Positions 31,279 through 43,608 of a DNA stretch of 64,000 nt are shown here, piece by piece (the stretch's first letter is position 1; each line of letters starts with the position of its first letter). The translations under genes and the position numbers were made by a program. The DNA is taken from positions 8,370,001 to 8,434,000 of the forward strand of contig NZ_CP107960.1 in NCBI RefSeq assembly GCF_036077095.1, read 5' to 3'. The DNA comes from Streptomyces sp. NBC_00376. Lineage in GTDB: Bacteria; Actinomycetota; Actinomycetes; Streptomycetales; Streptomycetaceae. The notes under the pieces were generated by a model, which saw only the letters and a list, made by a program, of their open reading frames with translations, was not told the origin of the DNA and made no database searches.

Positions 31279-33333
31279 ATGACCGAAATCAACCGGCGTC
31301 GCTTCCTTCAAATCGCGGGAGCTACCGCGGGGTTCACCGCTCTGTCCGGATCCATCGACCGCGCCGCAGCCATCCCCGCGGCGCGCCGCAGTGGAACCGT
31401 CCAGGACGTCGAACACATCGTCGTCCTCATGCAGGAGAACCGTTCCTTCGATCATTACTTCGGGTCGATGAAGGGCGTCCGGGGCTTCGGCGACCCCCGC
31501 CCGGTGACACTGCCCAGCGGCAAGCCGGTATGGCACCAGACCAGCTTTTTCGGCAAGGAAACGCTGCCGTACCACCCGGACGCCGACGACCTGGGCATGC
31601 AGTTCATCGCAGGCCTCGATCACGACTGGGCCGGTGGGCACAGCGCGTTCAACAACGGTAAGTACGACAACTGGATCCCCGCCAAGGGCACCGGCACCAT
31701 GGCGTACCTGACACGGGAAGACATCCCGTTCCATTACGCCCTCGCCGACAAATTCACCGTCTGCGACGACTACCACTGCTCGTTCATGGGTGCGACCGAC
31801 CCGAACCGCTACTACATGCTTTCCGGACACGTCGGCAACGACGGTACCGGCGGCGGCCCGGTCCTCGGTAATCAGGAAGCGGGCTACGGCTGGACGACGT
31901 ACGCCGAGCGCCTTGAGAAGGCAGGAATTTCCTGGAAGGTGTACCAGGACATCGGCGACGGCCTCGATGCGGCCGGCGGCTGGGGCTGGATCAACGACGC
32001 ATACCGCGGCAACTACGGCGACAATTCCCTGCTGTACTTCAACAACTACCGCAATGCCAAGCCCGGCGACCCCCTTTACGAAAAGGCCCGCACCGGCACG
32101 AACGCCAAGGCGGGAGACGGATACTTCGACATCCTCAAAGCCGACGTCAAGGCCGGCAGATTGCCGCAGATCTCCTGGATCGCCGCCCCCGAAGCGTTCT
32201 CCGAACACCCCAACTGGCCTGCAAACTACGGCGCTTGGTACATCTCGCACGTCCTTGACGCGCTCACCTCGAACCCCGAGGTATGGAGCAGGACCGCCCT
32301 GTTCATCACCTACGACGAGAACGACGGCTACTTCGACCACGTCGTACCGCCCTATCCGCCGGCCTCCGCCGGCCAGGGCCTGTCCACCGTCGACACCACG
32401 CTCGACCACTACAAGGGCAGTATCGGATACGCCGCAGGTCCGTACGGCCTCGGGCAGCGTGTCCCGATGATCGTTGTCTCGCCGTGGTCCACCGGCGGAT
32501 ACGTCTGCTCCGAGACCTTCGACCACACCTCGATCCTGCGCTTCATGGAGAACCGGTTCGGGGTGAAGGAGACCAACATCTCGCCATGGCGGCGCGCCAT
32601 CTGTGGTGACCTCACATCCGCCTTCGACTTCTCCCTCAAGAACACGAACCCGGCCGACCTGCCGGACACCGCGGGCTACGCCCCGCCGGACCGCGACCGC
32701 CACAACAGCTACGTACCGAGGCCACCTGCCCAGGGCGCCCTGCCCCGGCAGGAGGCCGGGGCGCGGCCGAGCCGCCCGCTCTCCTACGCCCCGTATGTCG
32801 ATGGGGCCGCAGACCTCTCGACCGGCAAGTACAAGCTGACGTTCAGCGCAGGGGACCAGGCGGGCGCCGCCTTCCAGGTGCGCTCCCAGAATCGCTCCGA
32901 CGGCCCGTGGACGTACACGGCGGCAGCCGGGAAGCCCGTCTCCGACAGCTGGAACTCGTATTATTCCAGCGGCAGTTACGACCTCACGGCCCACGGCCCG
33001 AACGGCTTCCTGCGCGCTTTCAAGGGCAACAACAAGGCCGCCGAGCCGGAGGTGACGGCACGCCACGACGCCGGCAACCTGAAGCTCACCCTGACCAACC
33101 CGTCGACCGTCGACGCACACCTCACCGTGACCAACGCGTACGGCGGCCGGCGCCAGACCTATACGGTCCGCGCCGGCGCCACCGTCGAGCAGAGCATCGA
33201 CCTGCGCGCGACCAAGCGCTGGTACGACCTGACGATCGTCGTCGAGGGCAACGCCGGATATCTGCGGCGCCTGGCCGGGCACGTCGAGAACGGTCGGGCC
33301 GGCGTGAGTGACCCGGGCATCGCGACCGTGTGA
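31279..33333 (+). CDS. Secreted phosphocholine-type phospholipase C
   Basis: A 684-residue exported enzyme of the phosphoesterase (PF04185) group. A twin-arginine signal NRRRFLQIAGATAG opens the protein. The catalytic domain shows VVLMQENRSFDHYFGSM near residue 50, HDWAGGHSAFNNGKYDNW and ITYDENDGYFDHVVPP, which hold metal-binding and active-site residues. The last 190 residues form two repeats of the bacterial phospholipase C C-terminal domain (for example YKLTFSAGD and LKLTLTNPS). It should cleave phosphatidylcholine or sphingomyelin outside the cell, often as a phosphate-scavenging enzyme. AGGAGG lies 10 nt before the ATG. It stands alone and ends in a strong terminator. Confidence 0.92.
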   Translation: MTEINRRRFLQIAGATAGFTALSGSIDRAAAIPAARRSGTVQDVEHIVVLMQENRSFDHYFGSMKGVRGFGDPRPVTLPSGKPVWHQTSFFGKETLPYHPDADDLGMQFIAGLDHDWAGGHSAFNNGKYDNWIPAKGTGTMAYLTREDIPFHYALADKFTVCDDYHCSFMGATDPNRYYMLSGHVGNDGTGGGPVLGNQEAGYGWTTYAERLEKAGISWKVYQDIGDGLDAAGGWGWINDAYRGNYGDNSLLYFNNYRNAKPGDPLYEKARTGTNAKAGDGYFDILKADVKAGRLPQISWIAAPEAFSEHPNWPANYGAWYISHVLDALTSNPEVWSRTALFITYDENDGYFDHVVPPYPPASAGQGLSTVDTTLDHYKGSIGYAAGPYGLGQRVPMIVVSPWSTGGYVCSETFDHTSILRFMENRFGVKETNISPWRRAICGDLTSAFDFSLKNTNPADLPDTAGYAPPDRDRHNSYVPRPPAQGALPRQEAGARPSRPLSYAPYVDGAADLSTGKYKLTFSAGDQAGAAFQVRSQNRSDGPWTYTAAAGKPVSDSWNSYYSSGSYDLTAHGPNGFLRAFKGNNKAAEPEVTARHDAGNLKLTLTNPSTVDAHLTVTNAYGGRRQTYTVRAGATVEQSIDLRATKRWYDLTIVVEGNAGYLRRLAGHVENGRAGVSDPGIATV

Positions 33334-33635: not shown

Positions 33636-34970
33636 TCAGCCGCGCTGGGCGCGGATGAGGTCGCGGTACCACGCGAAGGACGCCTTCGGGGTGCGGACCT
33701 GGGTGTCGTGGTCGACGTGGACGAGACCGAAGCGCTGGTGGAAGCCCTCGGCCCATTCGAAGTTGTCGATCAGGGTCCAGGTGAAGTAGCCGCGCACGTC
33801 CACGCCCTGGGCCACGGCGGTGTCGACGGCCTGGAGATGGGTGTCCAAGTAGTCGATGCGGTCGGGGTCGAGGACGGCCCCGTCCGCATCGACGACGTCC
33901 TCGGCCGAGCAGCCGTTCTCCGTGATGTAGACCGGCGGGAGTGCCGGGTAACGCTCCTTGAGGCCGACGAGCAGTTCCCGCAGGCCGTCGGGGACGACGG
34001 GCCAGTCGAAGGAGGTGCGGCGGTAGCCCTCGATGGGGGCCTCTTCGAACGGCAGCCCCTCGGACGCCGGCGCCTGGATCCGGGTCGGGTTGTAGTAGTT
34101 GATGCCGAGCGCGCTCAAGGGGGCCGAGATCAGTTCGAGATCGCCGTCCCGGACGGAGCCGTCGAGGGTCACGTCCGCGCCGAAGTCCGACAGGTCCGGG
34201 TAGGCGCCCTTGAAGATCGGGTCGTTGAACAGGCGGTTGTGCAGGTTGTCATAGGCTCGCGCGGCGGCCCGGTCGGCGGGGGAGTCCGAGGCGGGCCAGA
34301 CCGGGGTGCAGTTGTTGGCGATCATCACCTGGAGGCCGCGCGCCCGCAGCTCCCTGAGCGCCAGGCCGTGGCCGAGCAGCTGATGGTGGGCGACCGGCAG
34401 GCAGTCCAGGAACAGGGTGCGGCCCGGTGCGTGAGTGCCGAGACCGTAGCCCCAGACCATGTGGATGAACGGCTCGTTGAGCGTGATCCACTTCTGGACG
34501 CGGTCGCCCAGCCGGTCGGCCATGATGGCGGCGTACTCGGCGAAGCGGTGTGCTGTGTCGCGGTTCAGCCAGCCGCCGTCGTCCTCGAGGGCCTGCGGAA
34601 GGTCCCAGTGGAACAGGGTGGGGACGGGTTCGATGCCGCGGGTGAGCAGGCCGTCGACCAGCCGGTCGTAGAAGTCCAGGCCCTTGGGGTTGACCTCGCC
34701 CTTGCCGGTCGGCTGGATCCGGGGCCAGGCGATGGAGAAGCGGTAGCCGGTGAGGCCCGCCTCGGCCATCAGTGCGATGTCCTGCTCGTACCGGTGGTAG
34801 TGGTCGCAGGCCACGTCACCGGTGTGCCCGTCGCGGATCGTGCCGGGCCGCGCGGTGAAGGTGTCCCATACCGAGGGTCCGCGGCCGTCCTCCTTGGTGG
34901 CGCCCTCGATCTGATACGACGCCGTCGAGGCGCCCCAGATGAAGTCCGCAGGGAGATGGTCCAGTGTCAC
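33636..34970 (-). CDS. GH1 beta-glucosidase
   Basis: A 444-residue family 1 glycoside hydrolase of normal length. The acid/base Glu166 sits in KWITLNEPF and the nucleophile Glu351 in VYITENGCS. The N-terminal FIWGASTASYQIEG signature is present, as is FTWTLIDNFEWAEGF near the C-terminus. There is no signal peptide, so it cleaves imported beta-glucosides or beta-galactosides in the cytoplasm. The start is GTG 34970 with GAGG upstream. A TetR-type operator (34985-35005) lies directly before it, shared with the divergent tetR gene. Confidence 0.95.
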   Translation of the reverse strand: MTLDHLPADFIWGASTASYQIEGATKEDGRGPSVWDTFTARPGTIRDGHTGDVACDHYHRYEQDIALMAEAGLTGYRFSIAWPRIQPTGKGEVNPKGLDFYDRLVDGLLTRGIEPVPTLFHWDLPQALEDDGGWLNRDTAHRFAEYAAIMADRLGDRVQKWITLNEPFIHMVWGYGLGTHAPGRTLFLDCLPVAHHQLLGHGLALRELRARGLQVMIANNCTPVWPASDSPADRAAARAYDNLHNRLFNDPIFKGAYPDLSDFGADVTLDGSVRDGDLELISAPLSALGINYYNPTRIQAPASEGLPFEEAPIEGYRRTSFDWPVVPDGLRELLVGLKERYPALPPVYITENGCSAEDVVDADGAVLDPDRIDYLDTHLQAVDTAVAQGVDVRGYFTWTLIDNFEWAEGFHQRFGLVHVDHDTQVRTPKASFAWYRDLIRAQRG

Positions 34971-34984
34971 GTCTAACCTCCTGA

Positions 34985-35005
34985 AACATGAGCAGGGCTC
35001 ACGTT
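34985..35005. promoter_or_regulatory. TetR operator copy A (glucosidase / tetR)
   Basis: AACATGAG, five bases, CTCACGTT: a 21-bp inverted repeat. It overlaps a candidate -10 (TAACGT on the minus strand, 35001-35006) for the beta-glucosidase and lies 27 bp before the tetR start, so it can control both genes. Confidence 0.8.
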
Positions 35006-35031
35006 AACCCGCTCGATGGGATGATGGAAGC

Positions 35032-35655
35032 GTGAATCAAGATCGCACCGCAGGGACGCTGCGCCGGCTGCCGGTCCAGAAGCGCAGCGCCGAACGCTTC
35101 GAACGGCTGCTGGACGCTTGCGCCGAACTCCTGGACGAGGTCGGCTACGCAGGGCTGACCACCAAGGAGGTGGCCCGCAGGGCCGAGGTGCCCATCGGCA
35201 CCCTCTACCAGTTCTTCTCCGACAGGGAGGGGCTGATCGGAGCGCTCGCCGCCCGCAATCTGGAGTCCTTCCTGGGGCGGGTCGCGGACCGGCTGGAGCA
35301 GGAGGAGCCCGAGGGCATCTCGGGCATCGTGGATGTGACCGTCGACGAATTCGTCACCATGCGCCGGACGATCACCGGTTTCGGCGTGGTCGACTTCGGC
35401 GCGGTGGGACAGGACCACACCCTGGAGCCGACCCTGGACAACAACACCGCGGTCGCCGGAAGGCTGCGCTCACTGACCGCCTCCCTGATCGGGGTCCAGG
35501 ACGACGCCGAATTCGAGATCGCGGTGCGGGTTGCCCTGGAGTGCGCGGACAGTGTGCTGCAACTCGCCTTCCGTATCGATCCGCAGGGCGACGCCCAGCT
35601 GATCGCTGAGTGCAAACGAGTCCTCAACAGCTATCTGAACGATCGACGCCGGTGA
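35032..35655 (+). CDS. TetR-family regulator of sugar locus 3
   Basis: A 207-residue repressor. The HTH is at residues 20-62: RSAERFERLLDACAELLDEVGYAGLTTKEVARRAEVPIGTLYQFFSDREGL split over helices 1-4, with GTLYQFF the classic recognition segment. The C-terminal ligand domain is all-helical and not assignable. It is divergent from the beta-glucosidase gene. The 21-bp palindrome in the shared region, repeated before the alpha-galactosidase and the secreted hydrolase genes, is its probable binding site, which makes it a local regulator of three promoters and of itself. The start is GTG 35032 with only a weak ribosome site. Confidence 0.9.
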   Translation: MNQDRTAGTLRRLPVQKRSAERFERLLDACAELLDEVGYAGLTTKEVARRAEVPIGTLYQFFSDREGLIGALAARNLESFLGRVADRLEQEEPEGISGIVDVTVDEFVTMRRTITGFGVVDFGAVGQDHTLEPTLDNNTAVAGRLRSLTASLIGVQDDAEFEIAVRVALECADSVLQLAFRIDPQGDAQLIAECKRVLNSYLNDRRR

Positions 35656-35791
35656 CCGGCAACCAGCAGTGCCCAACGCGTGCTTCGCGGCCGGAGGCAC
35701 GAATGGCCGGAGCCACCCGGGCGCTGTCGCGAGCCACGCCGGGTGATGCCCTGGATCTGCCGCAGGACGACGCCGCCGCCCTGCCCGGTAC
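35656..35791. other. Spacer between convergent tetR and MFS genes
   Basis: No gene. CACCCGG at 35714 pairs with CCGGGTG at 35739, a weak candidate bidirectional terminator. Confidence 0.35.
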
Positions 35792-37090
35792 TCAACGGAC
35801 GGCTTTGACCTTCCAGACCAGTACCGCGCCCAGCGCGGACATGGCCGCCGAGCAGAGAAACAGCGAGCTGTAGCCCCCCGGACCGCTGAGCACGACCGAG
35901 GCGACCGCGGGAACGAGAACGTAGGGCAGGGAGGTCATCAGGTTGGCCAGGGCCATGTCCTTGCCGCGGTCGGCCGAGGCGGGGAGCACCTCGGTGACCA
36001 GGGCGGTGTCGACGGCCAGATACACGCCGTAGCCCAGGCCCAGGATGACGGCCGCGACCAGCGTCATGGTCCACGTGGGCGACAGCGCGAGCGGGACCGC
36101 GGCGACGGCCATCGTGACGCCGCCGAGGAAGACCAGCATGCGCCGCTTGCCCAGCTTGTCGGAGAGCCAGCCGCTGAGGACGACCGTCGAGATCGTGGCC
36201 AGGCAGTTGATGCCGATCACGATGAGCAGGCCGTCCTCGGTGGACCGGCCGGGGAACAACTTCTCGTAGTGCAGGACGTCGTCCAGGAAGTACGGCAGGT
36301 AGAGCGTGCCCATGCCGTAGCCGAGACCCATGATGAAGCGGGAGCTCATCGCCCAGACGAAGTCGGGGTGCGCGCGCGGACTGATCCGGTAGCCGTCCAG
36401 GAAGGTGCGCAGCGAGAACGGCTCGCGGTGCAGGCGGGGCAGCGGCGGATCCTTCATGGTGGTCGCGAACAGCAGGATCAGGAGCGGCAGTACGGCCATC
36501 AGCAGGTACTGCGAGGCGAAGCCCGTGACCAGACCGATCAGCAGCCCGCCCGCGATCAGGGCGCCCGCCTGCGGGACCATGGCCCAGCCCAGCACGGCGC
36601 CGCGTTGGGCGACCGGGACCTGGTCGGGCACCACCGGCGAGAGTCCGGCACCGATGATCATGAACGAGGCGGACAGCACGAGGGAGCCGAGCGCGACCCC
36701 GACGACCGTCGTCTGGAGGCCGGTGAAGACCAGCGTCGCCATGCAGACCAGCGAGCCCACGAGCATCCACGGCCGGCGGCGGCCGAACCGGCTGGTGGTG
36801 CGGTCGCTGAGCGCGCCGGCCAGCGGTGCGATGACGATGCCCGAGATCGCGCCCATCATGCTGACCCAGGCGTAGCTGCCGACCTTCCCCGCCGGGTCGA
36901 TCTGGGCGATCTGCTCGGGCATCAGGAACGTGGTCGGCACCTGCATCGGGATGAACACCCCGACGTTGGCCAGGACGTACAGGGCGACCCAGCCGGGGCC
37001 GACCCGGCGGACGGGCTCGGCGAGGGCCTCGGGGCGCTCGGACAGCCGGCTGCGCTCGGGGCGCTCGGGCAGCTCGGGGGCAAGGCTCAT
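35792..37090 (-). CDS. MFS sugar transporter
   Basis: A 432-residue transporter with about twelve hydrophobic segments. The loop 2-3 motif GALSDRTTSRFGRRRPWM is characteristic of major-facilitator and glycoside-pentoside-hexuronide type sugar carriers, and the second-half counterpart GWLSDKLGKRRM is present. The ATG overlaps the stop of the GH36 gene by 4 bp (ATGA), so both are made together. It should import the galactoside or glucoside that the two cytoplasmic glycosidases split. It is an alternative to the ABC importers of loci 1 and 2. Confidence 0.9.
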   Translation of the reverse strand: MSLAPELPERPERSRLSERPEALAEPVRRVGPGWVALYVLANVGVFIPMQVPTTFLMPEQIAQIDPAGKVGSYAWVSMMGAISGIVIAPLAGALSDRTTSRFGRRRPWMLVGSLVCMATLVFTGLQTTVVGVALGSLVLSASFMIIGAGLSPVVPDQVPVAQRGAVLGWAMVPQAGALIAGGLLIGLVTGFASQYLLMAVLPLLILLFATTMKDPPLPRLHREPFSLRTFLDGYRISPRAHPDFVWAMSSRFIMGLGYGMGTLYLPYFLDDVLHYEKLFPGRSTEDGLLIVIGINCLATISTVVLSGWLSDKLGKRRMLVFLGGVTMAVAAVPLALSPTWTMTLVAAVILGLGYGVYLAVDTALVTEVLPASADRGKDMALANLMTSLPYVLVPAVASVVLSGPGGYSSLFLCSAAMSALGAVLVWKVKAVR

Positions 37091-39147
37091 CGGGACACTC
37101 TCTTGAGGTGGACGAGCTCGCTCGTCCAGTCGAAGGACAGCAGCGGCGGGAGGCCGTGGCTGAGCAGGACGGCGCCCTCGTGGACGGCGCCGGTGGTCTC
37201 GTCCCGGTAGCGGGCGTCGGGGTCGAGGCCCTTCAGCCGGGTGCGGGCGACCGAGCGGGTCAGCGCGGACGGCTGGAACTGGAAGACGACGACCTCGTTC
37301 TCGGTGAGGTACTGCACGGCGTCGTGCTCCAGGCGGTACTGGACGCCGCCGTGCACCACGGGCCGGATCCGCTTGTACTGCTCGACCAGCATCCGGGCCC
37401 AGGCCAGATCCTCCTCGCTCCAGTTCCGCAGGTTGCCGCCGATGCCCATCGCCCCGGCCATCGAGACATGGAAGCGGTACCGGATCGAGGTCGGGCGGGC
37501 GGTGAAGCTGTGCGGGCTGTCGGTGACCCAGGCGCCCATGGTCCGGGCGGGCAGCAGCTGGCAGTGGCCGTGCTGGATCGCGACCCGGTCGGCGGCGTCG
37601 GTGTTGTCGGACGTCCAGACCTGGTCGGCGCGGGCCAGCACGCCCAGGTCGGCCCGGCCGCCGCCGCCCGCGCACGATTCCAGGTACAGGCCGGGACGGG
37701 CGGCGCGCAGCCGGTCCATCACCTCGTAGACCCCGCGCGTGTGCTCGATCCAGACCCGGTCGGGGTCGGCGGCACCGGGCTGCCCCGCCTCGCTGAAGGG
37801 CCGGTTCATGTCCCATTTGAGGAAGACCACGTCCAGCTCGGTGACGGTCCTGACCAGCCAGTCGACCGCCCATTCCCGGACGTCGCGGCGGGCGAAGTTC
37901 AGCACGTGCTGGTGGCGGCGCCGGGTGCGGGTACGGCCGTCCTGGCACAGGATCCAGTCGGGGTGCGCACGGAAGAGGTCGCTGTCGGGGTTGACCGCCT
38001 CGGGCTCGACCCACAGGCCGAAGCCCATGCCCAGTGCGCGGACGTGGTCGGCGAGCGGGCCCAGGCCGTTCGGGAAGCGGTCGGGGTTGGGCCACCAGTC
38101 GCCGAGCCCGGCCATGTCGCTGGTGCGCGCGCCGAACCAGGCGTCGTCCACGACGAAGACCTCGACGCCGAGACCCGCGGCCAGGTCGGCCAGCTCGGTC
38201 TGCTGCTTCTCGCTGATGTCGAACTCGGTCGCCTCCCACGAGTTGAAGATCAACGGGCGTTCGGCAGGGCGGGCGGGCAGCACCTCACGTTCGATGTAGG
38301 CGTGCCAGCGGCGGCTGGTGCCGCCGAAGCCGTCGGGGGCATACAGCCCGGTGAAGACGGGGGTCTCCAGACGCTCGCCGGCGGCCAGCTTCCAGACCAG
38401 GCCCTCGTGGCCGAACCCGCCCGTCCAGGAGGCGCGGCCGTAGGAGTCGCGGCGCAGGGTGATCCGGCGGCTGCCGCTCCAGGCCAGGGCCGCGCTCCAG
38501 ACCTCGCCGTGCTCCTCGGCGGCGTCCTGCGCGTCGAGCATCAGCCACGGCCCGGCATGCTGTCCCGTGATGCCGAGCCGGCTGGTGAACACGGTCTCCC
38601 CGACGGGCACCCGGTCGCGCTGGAGCTGGAACTCCCGGCCCCATTCCCCCACCACATGGCTGACGCGGTAGTCGTCGCGGGCGGGCAGCGTCCAGGCGGC
38701 GGAGTCGAACCGCAGGACGTCCACCGGCTCGTCCGCGGTGAGGACGGCCCAGCGCTCGATCTGGTCATGGCCGTCCCGGAGCCGGTAGTGCAGGTCGAGA
38801 CCGAGGGAGCGGACACGGTCGGTGAAGGAGAGCGTGAGCAGGCCGTCCTCGACCGTGTGCGAGAGGAACCGCCACTCGAAGCCGCGGACACCGTCGTCGA
38901 ACCGGACGGTCAGCGACTGCGCCCCGAACCGCAGGCCGCCCTCGACCACGTACTCCTCACTGCCGGGGTCGTCGCCGCCGGGGTCCTCGTCGGGCAGGTC
39001 GGCCGCGATCACGACGGCCTGCTCCAGGGTCAGCGGCCGGCCCCAGTGCACATGCCGGGGGGTGTCGTCGGCGTCCAGCCGGAAGGCGTAGGAGGTGCCA
39101 GGGGTACTCAGGAGCCAGAGGCGGGCTTCGGAGTGGTGAGTGATCAC
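37087..39147 (-). CDS. GH36 alpha-galactosidase
   Basis: A 686-residue cytoplasmic enzyme with a complete GH36 signature. VVDDAWFG opens the barrel region, Asp446 in FLKWDMNRPF is the nucleophile, LESCAGGGGRADLG contains the substrate-binding loop, and Asp514 in WTSDNTDAADR is the acid/base. The GTG at 39147 was chosen because AAGGA lies 6 nt upstream; the longer frame to 39186 would run through the operator. It releases alpha-linked galactose from melibiose- or raffinose-type sugars. It is cotranscribed with the MFS gene and preceded by promoter and TetR operator copy B. Confidence 0.95.
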   Translation of the reverse strand: MITHHSEARLWLLSTPGTSYAFRLDADDTPRHVHWGRPLTLEQAVVIAADLPDEDPGGDDPGSEEYVVEGGLRFGAQSLTVRFDDGVRGFEWRFLSHTVEDGLLTLSFTDRVRSLGLDLHYRLRDGHDQIERWAVLTADEPVDVLRFDSAAWTLPARDDYRVSHVVGEWGREFQLQRDRVPVGETVFTSRLGITGQHAGPWLMLDAQDAAEEHGEVWSAALAWSGSRRITLRRDSYGRASWTGGFGHEGLVWKLAAGERLETPVFTGLYAPDGFGGTSRRWHAYIEREVLPARPAERPLIFNSWEATEFDISEKQQTELADLAAGLGVEVFVVDDAWFGARTSDMAGLGDWWPNPDRFPNGLGPLADHVRALGMGFGLWVEPEAVNPDSDLFRAHPDWILCQDGRTRTRRRHQHVLNFARRDVREWAVDWLVRTVTELDVVFLKWDMNRPFSEAGQPGAADPDRVWIEHTRGVYEVMDRLRAARPGLYLESCAGGGGRADLGVLARADQVWTSDNTDAADRVAIQHGHCQLLPARTMGAWVTDSPHSFTARPTSIRYRFHVSMAGAMGIGGNLRNWSEEDLAWARMLVEQYKRIRPVVHGGVQYRLEHDAVQYLTENEVVVFQFQPSALTRSVARTRLKGLDPDARYRDETTGAVHEGAVLLSHGLPPLLSFDWTSELVHLKRVSR

Positions 39148-39158
39148 GCAAGTCCTTA

Positions 39159-39179
39159 AACGTGAGTAGGGCTCATGTT
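39159..39179. promoter_or_regulatory. TetR operator copy B (alpha-galactosidase)
   Basis: AACGTGAG, five bases, CTCATGTT. It lies between the -10 element and the ribosome site of the alpha-galactosidase gene, starting about where transcription should begin. Confidence 0.82.
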
Positions 39180-39186
39180 TGGTCAT

Positions 39187-39215
39187 ACGTTAGGCACGCG
39201 AGCCCGCTGCGCCAA
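39187..39215 (-). promoter_or_regulatory. Promoter of the GH36-MFS operon
   Basis: On the minus strand, -35 TTGGCG, a 17-nt spacer and -10 TAACGT. The spacer and the bases after the -10 match the promoter at 41479-41507 closely (GCGGGCTCG in the spacer, TATGA after the -10). Confidence 0.65.
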
Positions 39216-39301
39216 GCCCCCTGACGGTGGCTGTCGAAATTCGCGGCAGGTGGTTCCCCGCGCTCCGCGTGGACCGCGGGCGGCGAACGCGCCGGAAAGT
39301 C

Positions 39302-39348
39302 AGCCGGGGCCGGCCGGATCAGGAGAGCTGATCCGGCCGGCCCCGGCT
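39302..39348 (-). terminator. Very strong hairpin after the secreted hydrolase
   Basis: A perfect 21-bp stem with a 5-nt loop (GAGAG), about 25 bp beyond the stop codon at 39372. It isolates this gene from the GH36 promoter that follows. Confidence 0.88.
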
Positions 39349-39371
39349 CCGGGCACCGCCTCGTGGGTGGG

Positions 39372-41435
39372 TCAGTCGGCGTAGACGCCGACCTCGCGAA
39401 GCGAGTAGCCCCACTGGGTGCCGCGCTCCAGCCCGGTGATTCGTACGTAGCGCGCCCGGGTTCCGGCGAAACGTGCCGTGTCCAGGCCGCCGTCACCGGC
39501 GGTCGTGGACCAGGCCGTCTTCCAGGTCGTGCCGTCCTCCGACAGCTCGACGCGGTACGACTTCCCGTACGCCTCCTCCCAGTCGAGGGTGACGCGGTCG
39601 ACCGGCTTCGAGGATCCGAGGTCGATCCGCAGCCACTGGTCGTTGTTCCACTCGCTGGCCCAGCGGGTGGAGGTGTCGCCGTCCACGGCCTTGCCGGGCG
39701 CGAAGCTGACGAACGGGTTCCACCATTCCGACGAGGACGCCGAGGCGGTGGCACCCGAGGCCAGGTTCGCCCCGGACTTGTGCTGCTCGGTGTTGCCCCA
39801 GGTGTGGAGGTAGGACTCGGCGCCCGAGAAGAGGTCGTCCACGACCCCCTGGCCGCCGACGATCCGGATGTCCTCGATCCAGTCCGGGACCATGCCGTAG
39901 TGCGAGGCACCATCGGTGTTGAAGTCCCATGTGCGCTCGCCGGCGGTCTGCTTGTCGATCACCGAGCCGCCGTCCGTGCTGCGGAAGGGGTACTTGACTG
40001 GGTTCGGGGTGTCCCCGCCCCGCGGGGCCGGCCAGCCGCCGACTCCGTTCATGTCGGTGCCGTATCCGTAGCCGACCTTGTACTTCTCACGCAGCGCGTC
40101 CGTGCGCTTGGCCTCCGCGCTGAACGCCTCGGAGCCGCTCATGTACTGGGCGGCGAACCCGCCGAGCTTGTAGAGCCGCTCGGTCCAGCCCAGGTCCATC
40201 CAGCTGTGCGAGGAGATGGCGCCCGGGTACGACTCCGACTCCATGATGTCGAAGGCCTGACCCGCGGCCTTGACGCTCATGTGGTCGAGTTCCAGCATCA
40301 TGTGACGTTGCATCATGCCGCGCACCGCGTACGCGCCGAGGTCGGTCAGCCCGCGGGTGTTGCACTGCGCGTCCGAGGCGTACGAGGGGACGGCCACCCC
40401 CTCCGGCAGCTGCTTCTCCGCCTCGGGTGCCCTCGCGTTGCCGATGGGGTTGTCGTGCTGCGGGCCGCGGCAGGTCTCCGTCTTCCAGAAGGTGCCGGTC
40501 GACAGGAACTGGCCCACGTTGATGGCCGTACCGAGGGCGCCGGAGTCGTAGCGCACCCCGCACAGTGCGTTGTCGAACTTGTGGCACAGGAACATGCTGC
40601 GCACGCCCAGTTTGTACAGCTCGTCGAGGCCGCGGTCGATGTCCTCCTTGCTGCACTGCGCGATGTCCAGGATCTGCTTGCAGCCGAACGGCTCGGAGGT
40701 CTCGACCCCCAGGACGACGGCCAGTTTGCCCTGCTTGATGACCTCGCGGGCCTGCGCACTGTCGGTGACGATACGGAACCAGCCCTTGCCCGGGCCGCCG
40801 TACATCTTGTCGATGAAGGCCTGCATGTCGTACGACTTCTGCGCCTCGAGACGGATGGCGGTCATCTCGTCGCAGCTGCGGTCCTTGAAGAAGTAGACCG
40901 AGCAGATCACGCCGTTGGTGACCAGGTCGTTGACCAGCACCCGCTGGCCGCCGCGCCATGCCCGCTCGATCCAGGCGTAGTAGTTCTGCTGGTGGGTCAG
41001 CGAGTCATGGGCGGGCCAGTCCTTGAACGTGGGCCACCCGTTGGGGTCGTGCTTCCCGTCCCCCTTGGTGATGAAGTCGAAGACGGCGCCCGTGCCGTCG
41101 GGGTAGTGCTCGGGGCAGTCCTTGAGCGCGTCGGTGACACCCTGCTCCGAGAACGGCTTGCCGCAGATCAGCCGGCCGCCGAAGCCCTCGTTGGACATGA
41201 TGTGGTCGTGGGCGTCGACGAAGCCCCTTACACGCCCCTGGGCGTCGGTGCCCTTGAAGGGCTCGCCCGTGACGTTTGTCTGCGAGTCGGGTGTGGGCCG
41301 GGCGGTCGGATCCCACCAGTTGGGCTCCGCCGCGGAGCTGGGCACCGGGCCGAGTACCAGGGTCATCACGGCGAGGAGCAGTGACACCACTGTGAGGGAT
41401 CTGAATCTGTGGCGCGGAGGTTGAACCATGGTCAT
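39372..41435 (-). CDS. Secreted metal-dependent hydrolase with C-terminal CBM32/discoidin domain
   Basis: A 687-residue exported protein. The signal peptide (RFRSLTVVSLLLAVMTLVLGPVPSSAAE) is clear. The N-terminal domain carries an HxH metal motif in GFVDAHDHIMSN and later LELDHMS and ISSHSWMDLG, which points to the amidohydrolase/membrane-dipeptidase fold. The last 140 residues read as an F5/8-type C domain (SASSSEWWNPFVSFAPGKAVDGDTSTRW, then LRIDLGSSKPVDRV), which usually binds galactosides or other glycans. AAGGA lies 8 nt before the ATG. The gene has its own TetR operator and promoter, so it is a member of the galactoside/glucoside regulon. The reaction is not known; a dipeptidase reading fits the fold but not the regulon. 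Confidence 0.82.
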   Translation of the reverse strand: MTMVQPPRHRFRSLTVVSLLLAVMTLVLGPVPSSAAEPNWWDPTARPTPDSQTNVTGEPFKGTDAQGRVRGFVDAHDHIMSNEGFGGRLICGKPFSEQGVTDALKDCPEHYPDGTGAVFDFITKGDGKHDPNGWPTFKDWPAHDSLTHQQNYYAWIERAWRGGQRVLVNDLVTNGVICSVYFFKDRSCDEMTAIRLEAQKSYDMQAFIDKMYGGPGKGWFRIVTDSAQAREVIKQGKLAVVLGVETSEPFGCKQILDIAQCSKEDIDRGLDELYKLGVRSMFLCHKFDNALCGVRYDSGALGTAINVGQFLSTGTFWKTETCRGPQHDNPIGNARAPEAEKQLPEGVAVPSYASDAQCNTRGLTDLGAYAVRGMMQRHMMLELDHMSVKAAGQAFDIMESESYPGAISSHSWMDLGWTERLYKLGGFAAQYMSGSEAFSAEAKRTDALREKYKVGYGYGTDMNGVGGWPAPRGGDTPNPVKYPFRSTDGGSVIDKQTAGERTWDFNTDGASHYGMVPDWIEDIRIVGGQGVVDDLFSGAESYLHTWGNTEQHKSGANLASGATASASSSEWWNPFVSFAPGKAVDGDTSTRWASEWNNDQWLRIDLGSSKPVDRVTLDWEEAYGKSYRVELSEDGTTWKTAWSTTAGDGGLDTARFAGTRARYVRITGLERGTQWGYSLREVGVYAD

Positions 41436-41449
41436 CGCGTAGATCCTTA

Positions 41450-41470
41450 AATGTGAGCGGGACTCATGTT
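41450..41470. promoter_or_regulatory. TetR operator copy C (secreted hydrolase)
   Basis: AATGTGAG, five bases, CTCATGTT. It lies 15 bp before the start codon and just after the -10 element. Confidence 0.8.
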
Positions 41471-41478
41471 CTGCTCAT

Positions 41479-41507
41479 AACTTAGGGATACGAGCCCGCG
41501 ACGCCAA
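41479..41507 (-). promoter_or_regulatory. Promoter of the secreted hydrolase gene
   Basis: On the minus strand, -35 TTGGCG, a 17-nt spacer and -10 TAAGTT, with the start of transcription expected near 41472, one or two bases before the operator. It is closely similar to the promoter at 39187-39215. Confidence 0.65.
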
Positions 41508-41937: not shown

Positions 41938-43608
41938 ATGACGCAGGACATAAGGGCCCACGGCGAGGCGCTCGTCGCCGCCGCCCGCGCGGGTGACACC
42001 AAGACCGCCCGCAGGCACACCGACTTCTTCGTGCTGCGCAAGCACGTGGACGAAGGCATCCCGTACTGGGAGCAGGCCGTGGCGGCCGGTGACGCCTTCT
42101 CGCACTACACCCTTGCGCGGTACCGCAAGATCCGGGGCGATCGGCAGGCCGCGGACGCGCTCTACCGTGCCGTCGCCGAACGGCATGCCGGGTGCGCCTA
42201 CGGACTCGGTGTACTGCTCCGAGAGGATGGTGATCCGGAGGCGGCCGACTGGTTCCGCCGTGGCTGGGAGGGAGGGCGCAACCTCGACTGCAAGATCGAG
42301 CTCGGCAAGCTGCTCGCAGCCGAGGGAAGACTCGACGAGGCGGCGAAGTTCCTGATGAGCGACATCGAATTGGGCGACATCGCGGTCTTTCGTTGGGTGC
42401 AGCTCTTCGAGTCGATCCGAGAGGACTTCGACCGCGTAGCGGCGGGTCTCGATGCAGCCGAGGCCGCCGGGGACGGGGCCGCCGCCGCAGAGGCGCTGAG
42501 GCCGCTCTTCGCCCTGGAACAGCGCTTCCGCGAATACCCGGGCTTGACGGCCGAGGCCGCCGGCTACTACCGCAGGGCTTCCGCTCTCAGCGCCTCCGCC
42601 CGCGTGGACCACGCCGTGTTCCTGACGGAGACCGGCGGCGAGGCGTCCTGGCCCGAGGCCCGCAGCCTGCTGCTCCAAGCCCACGAGGAGGGTTACGCAG
42701 GCGCCGCCTATGTAATCGGCATCCTGCACGAGCGGCGCGGCGACCTCGGCGAAGCCGAGCACTGGTACGGCCTCGCGGCCGACCGCGGGCATCAGTCGGC
42801 CCAATGGAACCTTGGGATCCTGTGCAAGCGGCAGCGCCGGTACGAGGAGGCCGAACGTTGGTTCCGGGAGGTCGGCGAGGACGACGAGGACGTCGTCGAG
42901 CAGCTTGCCCGGATCGCCGCGATCCGGGCGAGCGGCGCCGTCGCACCAGGCAAAGACCTGCGCCGACTGCCAGGGCTGCGCGAGCGGGCCGAAGCGGGCG
43001 ACGTGCACGCCTCGTACGCGTACGGGAAGATCCTCGGCGACTGGGGTGGCGCGGACGACCGCCACCTGGTCCGCTGGATCGAACCCGCCGCGCTGGCCGG
43101 GGACCCACAGGCGGCTTACGACCTCGCGGAGTTGCACGGCGCTCTGCGCAGGCCCGCGCTGCGCGACCAGTGGTACCGGACGGCCGCCGAGGCGGGCCAC
43201 GATGACGCGTGCAATCAGATGGGATGGCTCTCCGAGCACCACCGGGACTACCAGGAGGCCGAGCGCTGGTATGTGCTCGCAGCCGGTGACGGGTCCCCGC
43301 TGAACAACATGCTCGCGGGCAAACTGAAGGCGCAGCGCGGCGCGTACGCCGAGGCGGAGCCGTTTCTCCGGATGGCCTGGGAACAAGGCGGCGACTCCGC
43401 GTACAGGACGGAGGCCGCCGGGTACTACGGACTCGTCCTGCACCGGCTGGGCCGCCTGGCCGAAGCCACCGAGCCGCTGCGGACCGCCGCCGCACGCTGG
43501 GACGACGATGTGAGTGCCCGCTACAGCCGGGACGACCTGGACGTACTGTCCCGGACGGTCGCCCCGGAGAAAGAGCTTGCGGAGGTGGAGGCGGCACTGA
43601 GGGCGTGA
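41938..43608 (+). CDS. Sel1/TPR-like repeat protein
   Basis: A 556-residue soluble protein made of alpha-helical repeats. Units such as EAEHWYGLAADRGHQSAQW, LRDQWYRTAAEAGHDDACN and EAERWYVLAAGDGSPLNN match the Sel1 consensus (A..WY..AA..G...A), about 36 residues each, over most of the chain. There is no signal peptide or catalytic motif, so it is a scaffold or protein-binding factor of unknown partner. The ATG at 41938 was chosen because coding character begins there, although no good ribosome site is visible. It stands alone. Confidence 0.8.
   Translation: MTQDIRAHGEALVAAARAGDTKTARRHTDFFVLRKHVDEGIPYWEQAVAAGDAFSHYTLARYRKIRGDRQAADALYRAVAERHAGCAYGLGVLLREDGDPEAADWFRRGWEGGRNLDCKIELGKLLAAEGRLDEAAKFLMSDIELGDIAVFRWVQLFESIREDFDRVAAGLDAAEAAGDGAAAAEALRPLFALEQRFREYPGLTAEAAGYYRRASALSASARVDHAVFLTETGGEASWPEARSLLLQAHEEGYAGAAYVIGILHERRGDLGEAEHWYGLAADRGHQSAQWNLGILCKRQRRYEEAERWFREVGEDDEDVVEQLARIAAIRASGAVAPGKDLRRLPGLRERAEAGDVHASYAYGKILGDWGGADDRHLVRWIEPAALAGDPQAAYDLAELHGALRRPALRDQWYRTAAEAGHDDACNQMGWLSEHHRDYQEAERWYVLAAGDGSPLNNMLAGKLKAQRGAYAEAEPFLRMAWEQGGDSAYRTEAAGYYGLVLHRLGRLAEATEPLRTAAARWDDDVSARYSRDDLDVLSRTVAPEKELAEVEAALRA

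Follow-up and report, generated by a model that had tools for sequence, protein, structure and literature searches.

A predicted three-site TetR regulon on a glycoside-use cassette of Streptomyces

A 64,000-nucleotide stretch of the genome of Streptomyces sp. NBC_00376 (the window; C1:8370001–8434000 of an 8.94-Mb contig, in a genome of 10.04 Mb on three contigs) carries three copies of a 21-bp palindrome, ahead of genes for a GH1 beta-glucosidase, a GH36 alpha-galactosidase with an MFS transporter, and a Peptidase_M19-like protein. A tetR gene diverges from the GH1 gene at the first copy, and the locus raises the question of whether one TetR protein governs the whole set, as an earlier note made from the letters of this DNA had proposed. 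Comparison of sequences across genomes makes it very probable that the locus is a local three-site TetR regulon, carried by a horizontally spread glycoside-use cassette and working by ligand-released repression.

The palindromes in the window and in the genome

The operators, predicted by pattern scan, are the following.

34985..35005, operator O1, common to GH1 (minus strand) and tetR (plus strand), AACATGAGCAGGGCTCACGTT
39159..39179, operator O2, ahead of GH36-MFS, AACGTGAGTAGGGCTCATGTT
41450..41470, operator O3, ahead of the M19-like gene, AATGTGAGCGGGACTCATGTT

All three repeats listed in the earlier note are present. The half-sites it gave, AACRTGAG-N5-CTCAYGTT, are matched exactly by O1 and O2, and O3 (AATGTGAG...) deviates from them by one base, in the left half. 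Each site directly precedes a minus-strand gene, as the note had said, at 14 bp (GH1), 11 bp (GH36) and 14 bp (M19-like) from the start codon, and O1 is indeed common to GH1 and to the tetR gene on the plus strand opposite. In dinucleotide-shuffled windows, matches with up to three mismatches had a mean of 0.25 and a maximum of 2, three being reached in 0 of 100; taken by itself, the inner core TGAG-N5-CTCA stands out less (0.9 matches expected, three reached in 5 of 100 shuffles). When the whole genome was scanned with the widened consensus AAYRTGAG-N5-CTCAYRTT, O1–O3 were the sole matches with zero or one mismatch, so that the absence of further copies noted for the window extends to all 10.04 Mb; a reversed control pattern gave zero matches in the same scan. 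Scattering of the motif over unrelated promoters, which the note had set against its own proposal, is not seen in this genome. Two sites with two mismatches were found genome-wide (C1:5218305 and C1:6301801), one of them between predicted open reading frames. Relatives of the cassette genes are absent from the stretches around both, and they are taken as chance or as another regulator's site. As an observation in its own right, C1:6301801–6301821 lies 12 bp ahead of a gene for a helix-turn-helix-like protein, a spacing about the same as at O1–O3. Rfam gave no match in the window.

The motif and its TetR across genomes

In a sample of 392 Streptomyces genomes, own genome included, the exact motif occurs in 10 genomes at 20 places, and a TetR orthologue with 82–100% identity occurs in exactly those 10 (hypergeometric probability 5e-20 assuming independent genomes, which these are not). 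Eight of the ten have the motif at two or three places, in seven cases on one contig and 2–7 kb apart, and all 20 places precede GH1/tetR, GH36 or M19 (one of them in genome G019, locus L162). The next level of TetR similarity is a paralogue, with 44–51% identity among the matches listed; a TetR match of any kind at E<=1e-45 is found in 246 of the 392 genomes, 236 of which lack the orthologue. NBC_00376 itself has such a paralogue (47% identity, C1:6873135–6873716), a type common in Streptomyces and followed in three loci (L093, L094, L097) by a molybdopterin oxidoreductase gene. At the 20 best-scoring paralogue loci from these 236 genomes (46–51% identity, 62.5 kb in total), both the palindrome and an adjacent GH1 gene are absent without exception, and in five stretches that were inspected molybdopterin oxidoreductase or ABC-transporter genes adjoin the paralogue. 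The palindrome is almost certainly read by the TetR encoded divergently from GH1, as far as sequence can tell.

More distant relatives of this TetR, with 55–60% identity, were found in 15 of the 394 genomes of a class sample, all 15 in one family (f17), and relatives with 55–65% identity in 51 of the 121 genomes of the family sample (f1), besides the own genome and two at 79–83%. The survey of these loci covered all 15 from f17 and 32 of the 51 from f1, 47 in total, with L128 and L129, of the clade at 79% or more, excluded. The palindrome, with 0–2 mismatches and at most 400 bp upstream of tetR, is present in 38 of the 47: in 13 of the f17 loci (3 exact, 10 with two mismatches) and in 25 of the f1 loci (6 exact, 14 with one mismatch, 5 with two). 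A GH1 gene is adjacent and divergent in 14 f17 loci, 13 of them with the site, and in 17 f1 loci, all with the site, which brings the palindrome to 30 of 31 distant loci with an adjacent GH1 gene. Elsewhere in the distant loci it is rare (none in 48 kb of f17 and three in 174 kb of f1, two further loci being counted in). Since the 28 sites behind the distant-clade consensus were chosen at 0–2 mismatches, their likeness is partly by construction, and their weight is in their presence and place, not in their consensus likeness. In two loci where tetR has no adjacent GH1 gene (L171 and L178), an exact site stands ahead of a GH1 gene 2.3 kb and about 8 kb away, respectively.

Two side observations concern such loci. 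L178 (genome G787) has palindromes with 0–2 mismatches at 732, 7178, 8333 and 9152, within 17 kb, one preceding a GH1 gene and another a gene for a MerR-type regulator, which is possibly a larger regulon. In L168 and L171 (genomes G845 and G802), the TetR relative without adjacent GH1 adjoins an alpha-1,3-glucanase-like gene with an F5/8 type C (F5/8C) domain.

A TetR tree with midpoint root, which includes one very long row (L157), separates the cassette clade (support 96/99), f1 (99/94), f17 (90/98) and the paralogues (94/92). The recognition-helix region reads VPIGTLYQFF in all 17 aligned rows of two clades (16 of them database rows, known by sequence and not by gene neighbourhood) and VPIGSVYRFF in two paralogues. 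Uniqueness in the genome, co-occurrence in 10 of 392 genomes and retention of the palindrome at 55–65% TetR identity, beyond the genus and in a further family, strongly support the predicted three-site regulon that the earlier note had read from the DNA.

Genes, promoters and spread of the cassette

The genes and inferred promoters of the cassette are given below.

33636..34970, minus strand, GH1 beta-glucosidase gene (444 aa, GTG start; Pfam Glyco_hydro_1 9e-155)
35032..35655, plus strand, tetR, presumed regulator (207 aa, GTG start; TetR_N 1e-11, TetR_C_22 4e-17)
35792..37090, minus strand, MFS transporter gene (Pfam MFS_1 2e-31, MFS_2 3e-15)
37087..39147, minus strand, GH36 alpha-galactosidase gene (686 aa, likely GTG start at 39147; Pfam Melibiase 2e-104)
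39187..39215, minus strand, inferred GH36 promoter TTGGCG-N17-TAACGT, its -10 ending 7 bp before O2
39372..41435, minus strand, Peptidase_M19-like gene (687 aa; Peptidase_M19 2e-9 and C-terminal F5_F8_type_C 3e-24)
41479..41507, minus strand, inferred M19 promoter TTGGCG-N17-TAAGTT, its -10 ending 8 bp before O3

The identities first given to the GH1 and GH36-MFS genes are borne out by Pfam (Glyco_hydro_1, Melibiase and MFS_1) and, for GH1, by the NCBIfam equivalog BGL (597.5 bits, above the curated cut-off of 478.5). By eye, no signal peptide was seen in either the GH1 or the GH36 protein. The TetR protein, encoded divergently from GH1 across O1, combines an N-terminal helix-turn-helix domain (TetR_N, 45.0 bits vs a Pfam cut-off of 24) with a C-terminal ligand-binding domain (TetR_C_22, 62.9 bits vs 26.4). 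In the GH36 protein, whose Melibiase domain scores 350 bits, KWDMNR and SDNTDA aligned with AgaB 4fnq and partly with 6jhp; we take the KWDMNR and SDNTD motifs to have a catalytic role. A longer GH36 open reading frame would start inside O2, and GTG 39147 is the likely start. The MFS start codon (ATG at 37090) and the GH36 stop at 37087 give a 4-base overlap, and the two genes presumably form one operon. The flanking genes, for a phosphocholine-specific phospholipase C (31279–33333, plus strand) and at 41938–43608, have no operator and no relatives above 100 bits in the named loci L006–L025 described below, which sets the limits of the shared cassette at GH1 and the M19-like gene. The best PDB match of the GH1 protein is 8znv, for which the literature search found no paper. 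PMC12369401 describes SGR_2426 of S. griseus as a sophorose-preferring GH1 enzyme with structures 8KAP and 9U98; its preference was not carried over to this GH1, as neither structure is among the 60 best PDB matches.

The M19-like protein is presumably secreted, with a Sec-type signal peptide at about residues 1–36, read by eye. Its Peptidase_M19 match is partial (best stretch at profile positions 86–147 of 319, E 2e-9), its profile match to dipeptidase 1 is weak (E 0.04), and its C-terminal domain matches the discoidin domains of the glucanase/chitosanase entries 4zxe and 2rv9. An AlphaFold model from 16 rows, with a predicted local distance difference test score (pLDDT) of 43.6, was too poor for use. 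The 'secreted hydrolase' of the earlier note is therefore better described as an M19-dipeptidase-like protein with a discoidin/CBM32-like domain, and not as a recognised glycosidase. Of 150 Streptomyces genomes sampled, 70 have relatives of the M19-like gene. Among 30 M19 stretches compared, all 5 cassette copies have promoter and operator (0–1 mismatch), the cassette-type promoter is found in none of the 25 non-cassette genes, and the palindrome with up to three mismatches in one of these (G070). One plasmid of S. atratus NBC_00041 carries the cassette and, at a distance of about 540 kb, an M19 gene with another promoter and a palindrome with two mismatches, a finding that speaks neither for nor against the regulon in that strain. 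Separately, in three of the four non-cassette stretches inspected (L159, L160 and L161, not L158) a BetI-type (TetR_C_6) TetR gene follows M19, which suggests that another regulator acts at these three loci.

The promoters were sought as TTGGC[GC]-N16-18-TANNNT followed by an operator. Ahead of cassette M19 genes this pattern, with the operator (0–1 mismatch) 7–8 bp further on, is present in all 16 non-redundant upstream regions. Ahead of GH36, promoter and operator are both present in 9 of 15 regions, with a gap of 6–8 bp, and O2 has no mismatch in any of the nine. The other six regions lack the promoter, and their operator is absent or degraded (2–7 mismatches). These six GH36 genes, two of them broken, start 93–146 bp behind M19, which fits read-through from the M19 promoter; the GH36 genes that keep their promoter lie 226–320 bp behind M19 in the five of nine cases where M19 was seen. 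The 75 bp before O2 and before O3 align with a score of 24, the maximum of 1000 shuffles being 11, and the sequence before O1 aligns with neither of these upstream regions. By this likeness, O2 and O3 belong to what is most simply one copied promoter–operator unit. A generic consensus promoter scan gave no match and did not call the GH36 promoter, so that the promoter claim draws on conservation only.

Six peptide patterns, whose reach is close relatives only, recovered orthologous tetR loci (83–94% identity) in Streptomyces, Embleya and Saccharopolyspora, 19 named stretches in all. A 20th match, in Devosia, is confined to residues 16–75. GH1 is the divergent partner of tetR in all 19, each with a site without mismatch, and the 10 loci of the TetR orthologue in the Streptomyces genomes, a set that overlaps the 19, all have such an O1 site too. 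GH36 was not seen in L010, L013, L018 and L019 and is fragmentary in L008, L009, L011 and L022; M19 was not seen in the available stretch of L006 and L023, and the stretches of L007, L008 and L015 end within the cassette. GH1 and TetR are the constant core, and GH36-MFS is often broken or missing. Streptomyces sp. NEAU-Y11 (L018 and L019) has two like TetR-GH1-M19 copies on two scaffolds, both without GH36. Two Saccharopolyspora copies nest among Streptomyces copies in the tree (17-row group, support 93/95). A TetR match at E<=1e-50 is present in nine plasmid records, eight of which have it at 81–97% identity on replicons of 0.58–5.7 Mb from Streptomyces and Embleya. Coordinates that coincide identify the carriers G019 and G038 as NBC_01237 and NBC_01276. 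We infer a horizontal spread of the cassette. MOB-suite classed seven of the nine plasmid records as non-mobilizable and two as mobilizable, so this spread is read from the distribution and not from mobility genes.

Proposed action of the regulator, alternatives and known systems

In the mechanism that we propose, a dimer of the TetR (35032–35655) would bind the 21-bp palindrome AAYRTGAG-N5-CTCAYRTT and thereby repress GH1 and its own gene at O1 (autoregulation), the GH36-MFS operon at O2 and the secreted M19-like hydrolase at O3. As O2 and O3 start 7–8 bp behind the -10 element, TetR bound there would lie over the start of transcription and keep RNA polymerase out. Release of TetR from the DNA would come about through a small ligand, probably a glycoside that has been imported, the aglycone of that glycoside or a product of its cleavage. 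The MFS protein would import the substrate, from which GH36 would remove terminal alpha-galactose, and GH1 beta-glucose, inside the cell. TetR, operator and GH1 may be an old switch, retained across genera and in two families of Actinomycetes, that was enlarged in the cassette by copying one promoter–operator unit before the later additions, GH36-MFS and the M19-like hydrolase, the GH36 copy having decayed where it lies close behind M19; such decay would be expected if GH36 is read through from M19. This scenario of growth we regard as evenly poised.

Several results weigh against the three-site regulon or narrow its reach. The palindrome is absent (at 0–2 mismatches) from 9 of the 47 distant loci, tetR is without a neighbouring GH1 gene in 15 of the 32 f1 loci, and 10 of the 13 f17 sites have two mismatches. 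The search of the 392 genomes covers TetR matches at E<=1e-45. The promoter pattern was found in none of 22 GH1 upstream regions, and O2 and O3, as one copied unit, are not independent sites, so that the three sites do not amount to three independent inventions. The carrier G038 has an M19 gene elsewhere without the site (counted among the 25), and the non-cassette M19 genes of S. atratus and G070 have another promoter and the palindrome with two and one mismatches, respectively.

Of the alternatives, the one that survives best, although we consider it rather doubtful, is that the TetR is an activator, or that its signal is not a sugar (for example an aglycone or an antibiotic) and the glycosidases serve detoxification instead of feeding. 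Hydrophobic ligands are common in TetR pockets, the M19-like protein, one of the presumed targets, is no glycosidase, and the sporadic, partly plasmid-borne distribution suits an accessory trait; however, an operator that coincides with the presumed start of transcription or closely follows it fits repression, and GH36 with the MFS transporter resembles uptake and use. The 'glucoside/galactoside use' of the earlier note is grounded only in part, since GH36-MFS is dispensable and no action on sugars is known for the M19-like protein. It is distinctly unlikely that the TetR controls GH1 and itself via O1 only, with O2 and O3 as non-regulatory relics of promoter copying. The GH36 and M19 promoters are indeed copies of one unit, several loci lack an intact GH36-MFS pair, and in the more distant TetR clades the link is mostly to GH1 only; yet O3 is kept with 0–1 mismatch in 16 of 16 regions and O2 without mismatch in all nine loci that keep the promoter, and L171 and L178, with sites before tetR-distant GH1 genes, hint at the use of several sites in other loci. 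That another regulator (LacI, ROK or the 47% paralogue at C1:6873135) reads the palindromes, with the divergent tetR a bystander, is hardly credible: the paralogue does exist in this genome and binding of the operator by the TetR is a prediction, but a paralogue at E<=1e-45 occurs in 236 of 382 motif-free genomes whereas the 10 genomes with the motif are also the 10 with the orthologue, all 20 examined paralogue loci are without the motif, the recognition-helix stretch differs in the two aligned paralogues, and the palindrome accompanies the tetR–GH1 pair across genera. Repression from three sites by the divergent TetR is the reading that we retain.

TetR-family control of a glycosidase together with a transporter is known from UidR, which acts over beta-glucuronidase in Escherichia coli. 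UidR (structure 6ayi) resembles the present TetR in the N-terminal region only (residues 23–112, E 3.5e-5); the nearest solved structure by sequence is 3bni_A, a putative TetR-family regulator (residues 9–203, E 4e-48) entered without a function. The remark that a TetR over such genes is less usual holds, with a predicted precedent: a comparative-genomic study describes the BgrT group of 23 TetR regulators, which forms a single branch of the TetR tree and is predicted to control genes for beta-glucosides and beta-galactosides in Bifidobacterium through palindromes of 18–22 nt; such regulators are reported from other Actinobacteria too (PMC4746261). Like BgrT in that account, the present system is a predicted local TetR regulon over glycoside hydrolase and transporter genes (MFS or ABC for BgrT), with tetR co-located with GH1, MFS and GH36 and a 21-bp palindrome before all three units. 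Unlike BgrT1 and BgrT2, whose enzyme is bglX (PMC4746261), it comprises GH1, GH36 and an M19-like protein on a cassette that appears to have spread horizontally in Streptomyces and relatives. The likeness is one of gene content and palindrome length; by this analogy the present system may work like BgrT. A Bifidobacterium BgrT protein was also sought in 15 small genomes of the class; nine stretches were drawn from this search, eight proteins from four of them were scanned, and none was a glycosidase.

A parallel cluster in G070 (L157, 3568–9429) has GH1 (65% identical), MFS (43%) and M19 (88%) genes and a TetR with TetR_C_22. Its palindrome before GH1, AACATGAACAAAAGTTCATGTT, has the same outer half-sites as here, AACATGA/TCATGTT, but spans 22 bp, and the cluster differs further in a TetR only 32% identical, another gene order and another M19 promoter. 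A palindrome with one mismatch stands ahead of its M19-like gene. In a search of open-licence papers, neither this TetR nor its operator nor any TetR–GH1 regulon in Streptomyces was found to be described.

These results give a TetR subgroup a predicted operator and a predicted target, GH1, that are transferable to dozens of actinomycete genomes, and, if true, would define a TetR–GH1 operator family for which no literature description was found beyond the BgrT prediction. The control of glycoside genes by TetR proteins that had been predicted in Bifidobacterium and certain relatives would extend to Streptomyces, sister genera and family f17, and an uncharacterised M19-like protein would become linked to glycoside use in the cassette carriers. 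Closely related cassettes show regulatory sites gained and lost together with their promoters and, if the proposed history is true, would form a natural series showing how regulons grow and are lost via promoter copy-and-paste.

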